From contig NZ_CP032683.1 in NCBI RefSeq assembly GCF_001304615.2, forward strand, positions 1,860,001 to 1,924,000: a stretch of 64,000 bases of DNA. The letters are read 5' to 3'. A program made the position numbers and the translations under genes. The notes under the pieces were generated by a model. That model was not told the DNA's origin and made no database searches. It worked only from the letters and a program-made list of their open reading frames with translations. Numbering within the stretch: position 1 is the first letter of the stretch; the number at the start of each line of letters is the position of its first letter. This document shows positions 6,234 to 10,984 of the stretch, piece after piece. The stretch is from Methanosarcina flavescens (GTDB lineage: Archaea; Halobacteriota; Methanosarcinia; Methanosarcinales; Methanosarcinaceae).

Positions 6234-7478
6234 TCATGAAAACATCTTGCTAAAAACGGATGTTTTAAAATCCACCAGGGGTTTGAGCCTGTAATCCTCA
6301 AGGAGTACTTTTCGAGTGTTTTCTACCGGAACACTCAGGGAAATTTCTTTAGTCCTGCCGTAACGACCTTTGCTTACAACCACTGCATTGACTATGCCCA
6401 GCATATCAAGCTCGGACATGAGATCGGTAACCCTGCGTTGTGTAAGGATATCTACGTCAATGTGATGGCAGAGCTGGCGGTAGACATTGTACATCTCGCC
6501 TGTCGTAACATTCTTACCTTCTCTGCCCCGGCTCCGCAGCAGAATAATGCTGTAGAGTACGAGTTTGGACTGGGTAGGAAGGGTCCTTACTACTTCGACC
6601 ACGCGATCGATTTCGATTTTTTCCTGAGCACGTCTGACATGCTCTTCAAGAACCTGGGGCTGGTTTTCCCGTTCTGCAATTTCTCCTGATACCCGAAGGA
6701 GGTCAAGCGCACGCCTTGCATCACCGTGCTCCTGGGCTGCAAAAGCAGCGCATAAGGGAATTACCATTTCACCTAGAACGCCGTCAGTGTAAGCCATCTT
6801 TGCCCTTTGTTTCAGGATATCACTGATCTGTTCAGCATCATATGGAGGGAAAATGAGTTCCTCTTCACCCAGGGAACTTTTAACCCTGGGATCCAGAAAC
6901 TCAGTGAACTTCAGATCGTTTGAGACGCCAATCATACTGACTTTGGCTTTCCGCAAATCTGTATTGATTCTCGATAGATTATAAAGGACATCGTCACCTT
7001 TTTTGATAAGCTTATCGATTTCGTCCAGAATTATGATAATTACCTGCTCTTTTGAGTCAATTGCCTCCTTAAATTTCATGAAGACCTGATCTGTAGGCCA
7101 CCCGGTCATAGGAACTTCTTCTTCAAAATGTCTGGCAAGATTTGCAAGGAGCCGGTATTGTGTGTCGATTACTTCACAATTGATATAAACAACCGAGCAA
7201 AAAAGTGATTTGTCTTCACTTACTCTTTCAAGTTCCTTTCCAACGTAACGAGTGACAGCCGTTTTTCCTGTTCCTGTTTTTCCATAAATCAGCACATTGG
7301 AAGGAGTTTCTCCTCGAAGTGCAGAAACCAAGATTGTTGCAAGACCATTAATTTGCTCGTTCCTATGCAGCAAAAGATCAGGCGTATAAGAAGGCCGAAG
7401 TACCTCTTTATTTTTGAAAATTGATTTTCCGTCAAGTAATTTTTCGAATAAGCCGTCTAATGATTGAGCTTTTATCAT
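6234..7478 (-). CDS. cdc6: Orc1/Cdc6 replication initiator
   Basis: A 414-residue archaeal Orc1/Cdc6 protein, the initiator that binds origin recognition boxes and loads MCM. AAA+ elements in order: Walker A YGKTGTGKTA near residue 65-74, Walker B IIIILDEIDKL near 150, sensor 1 MIGVSND near 183, a sensor 2 region with HGDARRALDLLR near 255, then a C-terminal winged helix (about 300-414). I chose ATG 7478 because GAGGATC lies just upstream and the homologous N-terminus begins MIKAQSLDGLF; the longer frame adds 21 poor residues. The upstream DNA holds ORB-like sites, so this is likely an origin-adjacent, possibly autoregulated initiator gene. Confidence 0.93.
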   Translation of the reverse strand: MIKAQSLDGLFEKLLDGKSIFKNKEVLRPSYTPDLLLHRNEQINGLATILVSALRGETPSNVLIYGKTGTGKTAVTRYVGKELERVSEDKSLFCSVVYINCEVIDTQYRLLANLARHFEEEVPMTGWPTDQVFMKFKEAIDSKEQVIIIILDEIDKLIKKGDDVLYNLSRINTDLRKAKVSMIGVSNDLKFTEFLDPRVKSSLGEEELIFPPYDAEQISDILKQRAKMAYTDGVLGEMVIPLCAAFAAQEHGDARRALDLLRVSGEIAERENQPQVLEEHVRRAQEKIEIDRVVEVVRTLPTQSKLVLYSIILLRSRGREGKNVTTGEMYNVYRQLCHHIDVDILTQRRVTDLMSELDMLGIVNAVVVSKGRYGRTKEISLSVPVENTRKVLLEDYRLKPLVDFKTSVFSKMFS

Positions 7479-7665
7479 AGATGATCCTCTATAAAAATTT
7501 ATGATGTCAAATATATTTGGGTTAAGACAGTTGATATACATTTTTTATACAGATAATTTATACAGATAATTGGCACATTTATTTACTTTTAACACGGATA
7601 ATTGACATATTCAGCGTATAATTAATTTGAATAATACTAATATATGTGGTTAATTAATAAAGTAA

Positions 7666-7733
7666 TATAATATACATAGTTATATAATATACATAGTTAT
7701 ATAATATACATAGTTATATAATATACATGGTTA
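7666..7733. repeat. four-unit 17-bp AT-rich tandem repeat
   Basis: Four consecutive copies of TATAATATACATAGTTA, the last with one change (ATGG). It lies in the upstream DNA of orc1/cdc6 inside the candidate origin. It could be an iteron-like or easily melted element, or simply slippage. Confidence 0.9.
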
Positions 7734-8328
7734 ATTAGATTATAAAGTAATCATGATATACACAGTTAATTGACACAGTATATAACTCGTATACTACCTT
7801 TACACACTACTTTCATTTTTGCTTTTACAGCAACTATTTTTAATGTTTTACTGTTTTAAAGTGTTTTACAGCTACCTGAGATAAGAGGATTTTTCACAGG
7901 CGGCTCCGTTTTTAATTTTCTAAACCCACAGCATTGAATATTCATGTTTTATTAATATTACAATAACTGTCAAACTATTCTCAGGTAATATTTTTTAAGT
8001 GAAGTTATTTTTAGGTAATATTTTTAGACAATGTTATGCTTTTGATCAAAGGGGGGCCTCAGAGCCGTTATGAATAAGATTTTTAATGAGATTTCTGAAA
8101 GGGGATTTGGAAAAGAATGTTTTTTTAATTCCAGAATTTCACTTTGAACTTCTAATTTTAAACCTCTAATTTTAGGCTTTTAATATAAACTTTAATTTTA
8201 GTTTTTAATTTCGAGTGTTTAATTTTAATTTTGAATTTGAGCGTCTAACTGCAAATTCTTAATTTAGAATTCTTAAACCTATATTATTATTTCGAGACTT
8301 CGAAAACTAAACTCTACTTTATGATTGT

Positions 8329-8376
8329 TGGATTTTTACTACATTGGATTTTTACTACATTGGATTTTTACTACAT
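8329..8376. repeat. three-unit 16-bp tandem repeat
   Basis: Three exact head-to-tail copies of TGGATTTTTACTACAT inside the candidate origin region. No function is evident. Confidence 0.9.
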
Positions 8377-8670
8377 GATTTTTTTTCTGCTTTCTATGAG
8401 AAAGCATATAAATCCCGATCATGAGGAGGAAGAGAAAGAAGATACATATTTCTTATAGTTAATGCCTGAAATTCTTACCTTCTATCAATTGCTCCTAAGA
8501 CGGCGGGCAAAATTTTACTTATTGAAGCGCATCTCAAGCCTGAAGAAAACCTTTATTCCGGGTCTTCTTTAGCCAAAATTTTAGGTGAAATTAGTATATA
8601 AACAAGTAATTTTAAGTTATATTTGCAGTAGATGCAATGGAAGTACACGTTATTAATTGTTATGGTATAG

Positions 8671-8691
8671 ACCCGTTTATTTCCACTGGAG
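8671..8691 (-). other. ORB-like initiator binding site 1
   Basis: Read on the - strand the core is CCAGTGGAAATAAACGGGT preceded by CT. This matches the archaeal ORB layout of a CTCCAGTGGAAA core followed by a G-string. Confidence 0.75.
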
Positions 8692-8760
8692 ATTGATTTT
8701 ATTTTAAATATATATCAAAAAACGATAACAAGAAACACAGTTAATTTGAAACAAAATATT

Positions 8761-8785
8761 CTTGATTCCATAACCACTGGAGGTT
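8761..8785 (-). other. partial ORB-like site 2
   Basis: The - strand reads AACCTCCAGTGGTTATGG. The CTCCAGTGG core is intact but the A-tract and G-string are poor, so this may be a mini-ORB or a decayed site. Confidence 0.45.
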
Positions 8786-8915
8786 AAATTTTTATCCTTC
8801 TTTTCGCATGGAAGAAGTTATGAAAAGTTTTTACTCTTTTTCTTAAGTTAAAAGAATAAAAATTTTAAGATAAAATAAGAATTATATGTGAATTTAGTAT
8901 GCGTGAATTTATTGC

Positions 8916-9077
8916 TTATGATAAATTGAAAAATTAAGATAGAGAAAATTAGAAAAAATAAAAAATGAAAGAAATGAGTAAAGTGAAAGAAAAATAAGGG
9001 AAATAGGAAAATAAGGGAAATAGGAAAATAAAGAAAAATAAAGAAAATAGAAAAAAGTGAAAGAAAATAAGAAAAGA
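8916..9077. other. 162-nt C-free purine/AT tract, candidate unwinding element
   Basis: From 8916 to 9077 the + strand contains no C at all and is very A-rich, with repeated ATAAGGGAAATAGGAAA phrases. It lies between ORB-like sites 1/2 and 3/4. Extreme strand asymmetry and low melting energy suit a duplex unwinding element. Short open frames on the complementary strand are phenylalanine-rich artefacts of this composition. Confidence 0.65.
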
Positions 9078-9098
9078 CCCCTTTGTTTCTACTGGAAA
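9077..9098 (-). other. ORB-like initiator binding site 3
   Basis: The - strand core is CCAGTAGAAACAAAGGGGT, a close match to archaeal ORBs including the GAAACAAAGGGG block. Confidence 0.8.
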
Positions 9099-9115
9099 GC
9101 TTATATAACTCCCGG

Positions 9116-9136
9116 ACCCCATGATTTCCACTAAAG
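9116..9136 (-). other. ORB-like initiator binding site 4
   Basis: The - strand reads TAGTGGAAATCATGGGGT after CTT. Core and G-string are kept, with one altered flank. It is 39 bp from site 3 in the same orientation. Confidence 0.65.
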
Positions 9137-9329
9137 GACATTAGGGCTTGAAGCAACAAAATAAAGCTTCGTTTTATTTAGTTGGTGACAAAATAATGTT
9201 GTTTGGTTATAAAACTTTTAGTATATATAGTTAACTATTTTAGTTTTTTTATAACAGATTCTTTTTAGATCTTAAAATAGGATTTTTCTTATTCTTCAAA
9301 ATTCGTTTTACTTATTCATGAAAAAAAAT

Positions 9330-9350
9330 CTCCAATCGAAATAAAGGGGT
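9330..9350 (+). other. ORB-like initiator binding site 5 (opposite orientation)
   Basis: The + strand reads CCAATCGAAATAAAGGGGT after CT. It is inverted relative to sites 1-4, giving the flanking inverted arrangement common in archaeal origins. Confidence 0.7.
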
Positions 9351-9781
9351 CCCTCTCTAAAGAAGACATCTCCATGATTAAGATAATCTGCCACTCTTTC
9401 TTCTCGTTAAATCTGTTTTAAGTAAACATGATACCTTTTCTTTCGCATACGTTTCTTTATACATTATACTTATTTTATTTTCTTTATCTTCTTATTTCCT
9501 TAAATCCTTTAATTCTTTCTTTAATTGGTTTTCATCAATTTAATTCTCTTTTTATGCTTGATTCTCCTCCTTTTATTGCTACTTTAGTGCCTTACATTAT
9601 ATCTCTGTGTTAATCTTCCTACCTTATCCTATCAATAATTACATATTTTTTGTGGGACTTTTTCTCTACTGTTTAATCTTTAAGGCACGACTTGGCTCTC
9701 TTAAGTGCATTTAAGTTATCCGGTAATTTTAGCAGGTATATTCCATAAATCTTTTAAATAAAATTGGTTTACTCTATGCAT

Positions 9782-10984
9782 ATGAATGAGAAGGGTCTTT
9801 CTGAGAAGGAGATATTTTCCTATCTGGAAAATGTAAAGTCAGAAGATACAGATTACTATAAGGTTTTAAGTTCAATGTGTACACGCCCACATAAAATTGC
9901 GGTTGAGGCTCACAGGCTGTTTATTGAGGCTAACCTCGGTGACTTGGGACTTTTTGCAGGCGCTCACAGGCTGGAAAGGGAAGTGATTATGATGCTTGGA
10001 GAACTTCTCCATGCTCAATCTGTTGATGCTCAGTCTGCTAAAATTCCTTCTGGGAAATCCGGTAAGGGTTCGATTTATGGCTATCTCACAACAGGAGGTA
10101 CGGAATCCAATATCCAGGCTGTTAGAGGCATGAAAAATCTGGTTACTGCGGGTGAGAAGAAGATAGTGGGGACGCCCAACATAGTTATTCCCGAATCAGC
10201 TCATTTCTCGTTTGACAAAGTTGCCAATATGATGGGCATTGAGGTTAAAAGAGCTCTTCTGGACTCTGAATTCAAGGTGGATATTTCATCTGTAGAAAGC
10301 CTGATAGATGCAAACACTATAGGACTTGTAGGAATAGCAGGAACTACAGAATTTGGCCAGATAGACCCTATCGAGAAACTTGCAAAACTTGCTCTTGATA
10401 ATGAGCTATTCCTTCACATTGATGCAGCTTTCGGCGGGTTTGTGATCCCATTCCTTGAAAACCCACAGCCATTCGATTTCAAAGTTTCAGGTGTCACTTC
10501 CATTGCGATAGACCCACACAAAATGGGGCTTTCTACAATCCCATCGGGTGCCCTGCTATTTAGATCTCCTTCTTTCCTTGACTCCCTCAGGGTAAACACT
10601 CCGTATCTTACAACCAAGGCACAGTTTACTCTTACAGGCACCCGCAGCGGGGCTTCAACTGCTGCCACATATGCAGTCATGAAACATCTGGGCCGTGAAG
10701 GGTATAGAAAAAATGTACAGTATTGTATGCAACTTACTGAAAAACTGGTTAAAGAAGCCAGGAAACTAGGTTTCGAACCTCTGATCGAACCCATAATGAA
10801 TGTAGTTGCTCTGAGAGTTCCAAACCCTGATCTTGTTCGAGAACAACTCCTTAAAAGATTCGGATGGAATGTCTCAATCACCCGTACTCCCAGATCTCTC
10901 CGTCTAGTTCTCATGCCCCATAACACAGCCTGGGACATAGAAGAATTTCTGCAGGATTTGAAAAAAATAACAACAGAAATTTAA
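9782..10984 (+). CDS. mfnA: L-tyrosine decarboxylase (methanofuran pathway)
   Basis: A PLP-dependent group II decarboxylase of 400 residues that makes tyramine from tyrosine for methanofuran biosynthesis. Visible features: the GYLTTGGTESNIQA block (PLP phosphate and stacking region), HIDAAFGGFVIPF with the cofactor aspartate near residue 210, and DPHKMGLSTIPSGA with the Schiff-base lysine near 238. I chose ATG 9782 (MNEKGLSEKEIF) as the family N-terminus; ATG 9776 and TTG 9764 are in-frame alternatives. The gene stands alone beside the candidate origin. Some archaeal homologues decarboxylate aspartate instead, to beta-alanine for CoA, so specificity is inferred. Confidence 0.92.
   Translation: MNEKGLSEKEIFSYLENVKSEDTDYYKVLSSMCTRPHKIAVEAHRLFIEANLGDLGLFAGAHRLEREVIMMLGELLHAQSVDAQSAKIPSGKSGKGSIYGYLTTGGTESNIQAVRGMKNLVTAGEKKIVGTPNIVIPESAHFSFDKVANMMGIEVKRALLDSEFKVDISSVESLIDANTIGLVGIAGTTEFGQIDPIEKLAKLALDNELFLHIDAAFGGFVIPFLENPQPFDFKVSGVTSIAIDPHKMGLSTIPSGALLFRSPSFLDSLRVNTPYLTTKAQFTLTGTRSGASTAATYAVMKHLGREGYRKNVQYCMQLTEKLVKEARKLGFEPLIEPIMNVVALRVPNPDLVREQLLKRFGWNVSITRTPRSLRLVLMPHNTAWDIEEFLQDLKKITTEI

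Follow-up and report, generated by a model that had tools for sequence, protein, structure and literature searches.

The gene-free gap beside orc1 in this Methanosarcina chromosome is, judging by its conserved sequence anatomy, very probably where chromosome replication begins, an origin of the ordinary, predicted kind. We consider it highly likely that the gap is oriC, with a core made up of the ORB-B/ORB-C pair, an AT-rich element and the inverted ORB-D, that Orc1 would fire it as homology suggests, and that the other ORB loci of the genome more likely do not fire. The window, the whole stretch of 64,000 nucleotides that was analysed, corresponds to bases 1,860,001-1,924,000 of a 3.28-Mb single-contig genome, and also holds the methanogenesis gene ftr, in keeping with Methanosarcina, a large genus whose genomes measure 2.3-5.8 Mb. 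Positions at oriC are given in window coordinates, those of distant loci in chromosome coordinates. As the ORB reference we used the published Methanomicrobia motif TCCA[GC]T[GT]GAAA[CT][AG]A[AT]GGGGT (PMC4164010). The features of the locus are as follows.

6234-7478, minus strand: orc1/cdc6 initiator gene (Pfam Cdc6_C 5e-32, Cdc6_lid 4e-29)
7479-9775: gene-free gap between orc1 and a pyridoxal-dependent decarboxylase gene, about 2.3 kb with short ORFs only, containing oriC
8600-8670: highly conserved block abutting ORB-A, TTTGCAGTAGATGCAATGGAAGTACAC..., identity about 0.85-0.9 in 13 Methanosarcina gaps
8671-8690, minus strand: ORB-A, TCCAGTGGAAATAAACGGGT, 1 mismatch to the Methanomicrobia motif
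8774-8782, minus strand: half-site CTCCAGTGG without the G-run, by sequence a member of repeat family D10, with no ORB at this place in the genus alignment
8793-8812, minus strand: ORB-A', a degenerate remnant by the genus alignment, decayed here and more intact in other species
8920-9076, plus strand: polypurine tract beside ORB-B, 87% purine across the 150 bp left of ORB-B
9077-9096, minus strand: ORB-B, TCCAGTAGAAACAAAGGGGT, 1 mismatch to the Methanomicrobia motif
9101-9108: conserved spacer TTATATAA between ORB-B and ORB-C, which reads TTTATATAA or close to it in the species aligned
9116-9135, minus strand: ORB-C, TTTAGTGGAAATCATGGGGT, 3 mismatches to the Methanomicrobia motif, exactly 39 bp from ORB-B
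9155-9183: inverted repeat AACAAAATAAA-N6-TTTTATTTAGTT at the core's ORB-C end, a single locus in the genome
9187-9210, plus strand: conserved element ACAAAATAATGTTGTTNNGTTAT, single copy in the genome, at oriC also in genera g2 and g11
9207-9286: probable DNA-unwinding element by nearest-neighbour energies, with TATATATA at 9222-9229
9331-9350, plus strand: ORB-D, inverted, TCCAATCGAAATAAAGGGGT, 2 mismatches to the Methanomicrobia motif
9776-10984, plus strand: pyridoxal-dependent decarboxylase gene, beyond oriC as seen from orc1 (Pfam PF00282 5e-31), which we take to be mfnA-like

The initial annotation had described five ORB-like sites in a gene-free region of about 2.3 kb. The region is as described, with only short ORFs and no Rfam match between 7479 and 9775. 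Four of the sites are genuine ORBs (8671, 9077 and 9116 on the minus strand, 9331 on the plus strand), while the fifth, placed at 8761, reduces to the half-site at 8774-8782. Better versions of the decayed ORB-A' lie 124-165 bp from ORB-A in relatives, and conserved CYCYCTC-like bases directly follow ORB-D. The core of oriC spans about 9077-9358 (~280 bp), with ORB-A at 8671 as an outlying box. The arrangement is that of an oriC1-type origin: adjacent to orc1, with four ORBs that carry the G-run and with ORB-C (minus) and ORB-D (plus) inverted around an AT-rich element.

Between ORB-C and ORB-D the sequence is 23% GC here and 19-26% GC in 23 species. Within it, the conserved AT-rich core (9155-9230) presents, in the direction from ORB-C to ORB-D, the inverted repeat, then ACAAAATAATGTTGTTNNGTTAT and then TATATATA. 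The repeat has its sole locus in this genome at oriC even when 3 mismatches are allowed; across the genus most of its occurrences are at oriC, and some of the genomes share one additional conserved locus; it is also present in g2 and g11. Matches to the AT core in G033, G065, G049, G034 and G064 (2-3 mismatches) lie away from ORBs and are probably due to chance. By nearest-neighbour energies, the probable unwinding element ranks at the 99.8th percentile of instability within the window. The weakest 80-bp stretch of all lies elsewhere in the gap, at 7649-7728, in its orc1-proximal part, where short tandem repeats occur at 7661-7733 (17 bp x 4.3) and 8328-8376 (16 bp x 3.1).

On the orc1-facing side of the core, the tract left of ORB-B is at least 75% purine in 11 of 23 species and falls below this in the remaining ones. 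Upstream of ORB-A, two blocks (8440-8470 and 8600-8670) reach about 0.8-0.9 identity across the genus and contain TATA-like sequences; they could be a promoter or a small RNA. A small protein encoded at 8600-8670 was considered and rejected because, in an alignment read by eye, the differences between species change codons and this genome carries a stop.

The initiator gene next to the gap is of the expected type. Its product retains the P-loop (GKTGTGKT), the acidic ILDEID motif, the AAA+ domain, the lid and the C-terminal winged helix, and its closest solved structures are 2qby_A (Sulfolobus Cdc6 homolog 1; E 2e-113) and 2v1u_A (Aeropyrum; E 7e-106); by domains, motifs and closest structures it belongs to the Orc1-1 class. 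The open frame reaches 7541, but the likely start is the ATG at 7478: homology begins around residue 15-22 in most relatives, the stretch 7478-7541 adds 21 codons past the ATG that conservation supports, and the annotated start may be too early. The orc1-decarboxylase neighbourhood is common to the Methanosarcina relatives and to genomes of genera g2, g5 and g11. A second Orc1/Cdc6 paralogue (C1:1945581-1946681), 32% identical to the first, lies 79 kb away and is kept in the genus, with no near-consensus ORB alongside.

What sets the boxes apart is their rarity and the constancy of their arrangement. Sites within 1 mismatch of TCCANTNGAAAYNANGGGGT number 10 in the 3.28-Mb genome, and 3 of these fall in the 2.3-kb gap; the reversed pattern, used as a control, has no match in this genome and in others mostly 0-1. 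An alignment of the gap among Methanosarcina genomes, which the initial annotation had proposed as a check, supports the origin: ORB-B, ORB-C and ORB-D keep the same order and orientation, with the 39-bp B-C spacing, in 23 of the 23 genomes whose retrieved sequence covers these boxes. An unconstrained scan recovers the 39-bp pair in 20 of these 23, and in the other three it appears only when the spacing is assumed; ORB-C has 5 mismatches in G008, G012 and G025, where it was found only by the scan requiring 39 bp. At the place equivalent to ORB-A, an ORB is present in nearly every Methanosarcina relative. The equivalent gaps range from 2.2 to more than 5 kb and the interval between ORB-A and ORB-B varies by kilobases, yet the B/C/D core stays intact at 1.4-5 kb from orc1 while the intervening DNA changes. 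The 39-bp pair also recurs in other Methanosarcinaceae genera, where a spacer resembling TTTATATAA separates the two boxes and the ORB set lies either between the decarboxylase gene and orc1 or close upstream of orc1; in G034, from another genus, the order is decarboxylase, ORBs, AT region, ORBs, orc1.

Is the origin also visible in the strand composition of the chromosome? Raw GC skew, the measure to which the initial annotation had pointed, shows no inversion or other signal at the gap, either in the window or over the whole chromosome, and GC3 and coding-strand bias likewise show none there. Third-position skew was calculated from 901 predicted genes in 79 stretches, covering 1.55 Mb or 47% of the chromosome, with the gene-strand effect removed. 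The cumulative disparity curves for AT3 and RY3 both stand at their overall highest at the first gene on the right of the gap. For AT3, the range has a P of 0.0045 by gene shuffle and a borderline 0.054 by block shuffle, and is the one positive among four skew curves tried; the RY3 maximum coincides in place, but its range does not reach significance (P 0.23). To the right of the gap there is a strong A/T shift; to the left it is weak, and AT3 is flat across the first 0.8 Mb. Near-equal secondary AT3 maxima occur at about 1.08 and 1.62 Mb, so the skew is no proof of a single origin; no near-consensus ORBs lie at these positions (~1.08 and 1.616 Mb), and the maxima may be rearrangement scars or further origins. 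In a half-chromosome sample of a second genome, AT3 has the expected sign and is not significant (P 0.10). Overall, the skew agrees with an origin at the gap and leaves room for others. Conservation of the layout and the place of the AT3 and RY3 maxima, right at the gap, speak for a replication origin beside orc1/cdc6, one that would presumably be active, as had been proposed; GC skew shows no counterpart.

By homology to characterized origins, the working of oriC would be as follows. Orc1 from the adjacent gene would bind each ORB with a fixed polarity, and the inverted ORBs flanking the AT-rich region would position Orc1-ATP to recruit MCM. The AT-rich stretch would then melt and two forks would leave. 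Now that the Methanosarcina origin is narrowed to about 280 bp of core sequence with its elements named, footprinting, deletions and assays of plasmid replication can be aimed at it directly.

But what about the ORBs outside the gap? Apart from the three at oriC, two of the ten near-consensus sites, at 1847322 (in the gene for RNA 3'-phosphate cyclase) and 1813306, fall within long open frames and were treated as coding coincidences. The other five are found at two loci.

1852570 and 1852747 (to 1852766): the RPA-locus ORBs, two boxes at a spacing of 177 bp, immediately 3' of the gene for an RPA-like OB-fold protein (1851035-1852489)
1153625, 1153913 and 1154480: DeoC-locus ORBs in one orientation, in the gap that separates a radical-SAM gene from the gene for a DeoC-family aldolase

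The RPA-locus pair, 16 kb from oriC, is present 3' of the RPA-like gene in most of the genus genomes examined, usually with the boxes 177-180 bp apart, and with other spacings in g11 and g2 as well. Two more conserved 20-bp blocks, AAAGCATTACAAATATAATT and AATGCCGTTATCGTTATGTA, lie between and beyond these ORBs. The DeoC-locus ORBs, downstream of the aldolase gene and 0.7 Mb from oriC, recur in 21 of the 21 genus genomes examined, one of which has a contig that ends before DeoC: the number of full or near-full ORBs in the gap ranges from one to three or four, and their orientation relative to the neighbouring genes is the same throughout. They are also found in g11, and a single ORB lies just 3' of DeoC in g5 and g14. 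No other 20-bp stretch in this genome's DeoC gap is as well conserved as its three ORBs, whose identities are 0.94, 0.83 and 0.78 against an average of 0.43. A purine-rich stretch in this gap (1153495-1154640, or L086:5495-6640), at about L086:6130-6390, resembles the tract beside ORB-B. Each of the two loci has 2-3 full ORBs in this genome and only 1 in several relatives. The DeoC gene with its one-directional ORB cluster has moved around the chromosome, and its distance from oriC ranges from about 0.2 to 1.8 Mb across genomes. A rule tying the cluster to fork direction was rejected because, compared by hand, its orientation relative to the fork is not constant between complete genomes.

Bacteria restrain DnaA with distant binding sites, as exemplified by datA of E. 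coli. The DeoC- and RPA-linked clusters might likewise be off-origin loci that bind Orc1 so as to titrate or regulate it, on the model of datA and oriC2D, a reading to which we give somewhat less than even chances. It would account for conserved ORBs that come without an origin core and that closely follow the 3' end of a gene, on the strand of that gene and not in its promoter. It also has an archaeal precedent in the ORB-rich, non-origin oriC2D, which restrains oriC2, probably by titrating Cdc6E (PMC3936714). However, each locus has 1-3 ORBs compared with 11 in oriC2D; the distance between DeoC and oriC varies so widely that it could not provide constant gene-dosage timing; and control of transcript 3' ends or nucleoid organisation would fit equally well. 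The wider proposal that these ORBs serve as dedicated initiator-titration or regulatory loci throughout Methanosarcina and in part of the family, which would bring datA-like replication control to a methanogen, is one that we put forward tentatively, with slightly less confidence still.

Alternatively, the chromosome could have more than one active origin, with the DeoC locus, the RPA locus or both fired as secondary origins by the same Orc1. The near-perfect DeoC-locus ORBs in every Methanosarcina genome examined and in g11, with the single ORB in g5 and g14, could be taken in this sense, as could their standing as the best-conserved stretches of their gap and the further AT3 maxima, one of which lies about 75 kb from the DeoC locus. 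Yet the ORBs at these loci all face one way: among the genus loci examined there is no full inverted partner, only a weak, overlapping match with 3 mismatches in two genomes. This genome has a single AT core and a single copy of the inverted repeat, both at oriC, and AT3 has no extremum at 1.154 Mb itself. We therefore regard secondary origins at these loci as unlikely. Because the DeoC and RPA ORBs are one-directional and lack an AT core, we favour, with moderate confidence, titration or another non-origin form of initiator binding over second origins at these two loci.

At the main locus, the ORBs lie 5' of the initiator gene, which could mean that their main role is to regulate orc1 transcription and that replication starts at another place. 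Other genera have an ORB only about 0.1-0.25 kb upstream of orc1, and autoregulation would be plausible there. In Methanosarcina, however, the ORB nearest to orc1 is about 0.5 to 1.4 kb away depending on the species, and the B/C/D core is retained at still greater distances. Here the nearest ORB lies about 1.2 kb upstream of the likely start at 7478, so the autoregulation suggested in the initial annotation is unsupported in this genus. Inverted ORBs around an AT core, together with the AT3 maximum, are traits of an origin, and we consider a mainly regulatory role, with the origin elsewhere, very improbable.

The general form given for the five sites in the initial annotation, CCAGTGGAAA-N-GGGG, has no match in the gap even at 3 mismatches because the G-run begins 4 nt after GAAA and not 1; across the window it has 5 matches against 4.07 expected, which is the chance level. 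The idea that the ORB matches are themselves chance occurrences in AT-rich DNA, which the count for this literal pattern would seem to favour, has a negligible probability in view of the almost empty reversed-pattern control for the correct motif and of a place, order and spacing that are conserved across species though the surrounding gap is poorly conserved.

Finally, we would like to place the origin and the off-origin loci in the context of known systems. The oriC itself is of a known kind: a single origin in Methanosarcina mazei was predicted by Z-curve (Zhang and Zhang 2002, as cited in PMC5333045 and PMC4164010), PMC5333045 lists the Methanosarcina origin as predicted and not experimentally validated, and Ori-Finder 2 lists the Methanomicrobia ORB motif (PMC4164010). 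The M. mazei prediction concerns the same genus and derives a single origin from strand composition, and the Ori-Finder 2 motif fits the sites described here; the prediction, as cited, is compositional. The off-origin ORB loci at the RPA-like and DeoC genes are apparently new: the accessible literature yielded no prior description of them, of the 39-bp B-C pair or of the core inverted repeat. We advance the novelty of the off-origin loci with caution, since most subscription papers lay outside the literature search.

Sulfolobus oriC1, with its ORB3-DUE-ORB2 arrangement and ucm (PMC12141716), is similar in being adjacent to orc1 and in combining inverted ORBs, an AT-rich unwinding region and an inner conserved motif. 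One Orc1 binds per ORB with a defined polarity in this system, and ATP-Orc1 recruits MCM (PMC12141716). The ucm is essential at oriC1 and common to three origins, and its protein UBP binds more than 300 sites (PMC12141716); in contrast, the inverted repeat described here occurs once in the genome, and the sequences differ. ORB3-DUE-ORB2 measures 130 bp, whereas ORB-B to ORB-D spans about 275 bp and has two tandem ORBs on one flank. Haloarcula hispanica oriC1 (PMC3936714, PMC4010727) also lies beside cdc6 and shares the inverted ORBs, the terminal G-run and an internal inverted repeat, but its repeat is a G-rich enhancer, while that of Methanosarcina is A/T-rich and of different sequence.

For the DeoC and RPA loci, the closest parallels are Haloarcula oriC2D (PMC3936714) and E. 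coli datA, where initiator boxes are clustered away from the origin without the hallmarks of one. The 11 ORBs of oriC2D lie right downstream of cdc6E, whereas at the DeoC and RPA loci 1-3 ORBs lie next to genes that are unrelated. Unlike oriC2D, these loci are distant from their initiator gene, lying 16 kb (RPA) and 0.7 Mb (DeoC) from orc1. They raise the question of whether archaea with a single main initiator restrain it by distant sites, in the way that bacteria restrain DnaA and that has been reported near oriC2 in Haloarcula.
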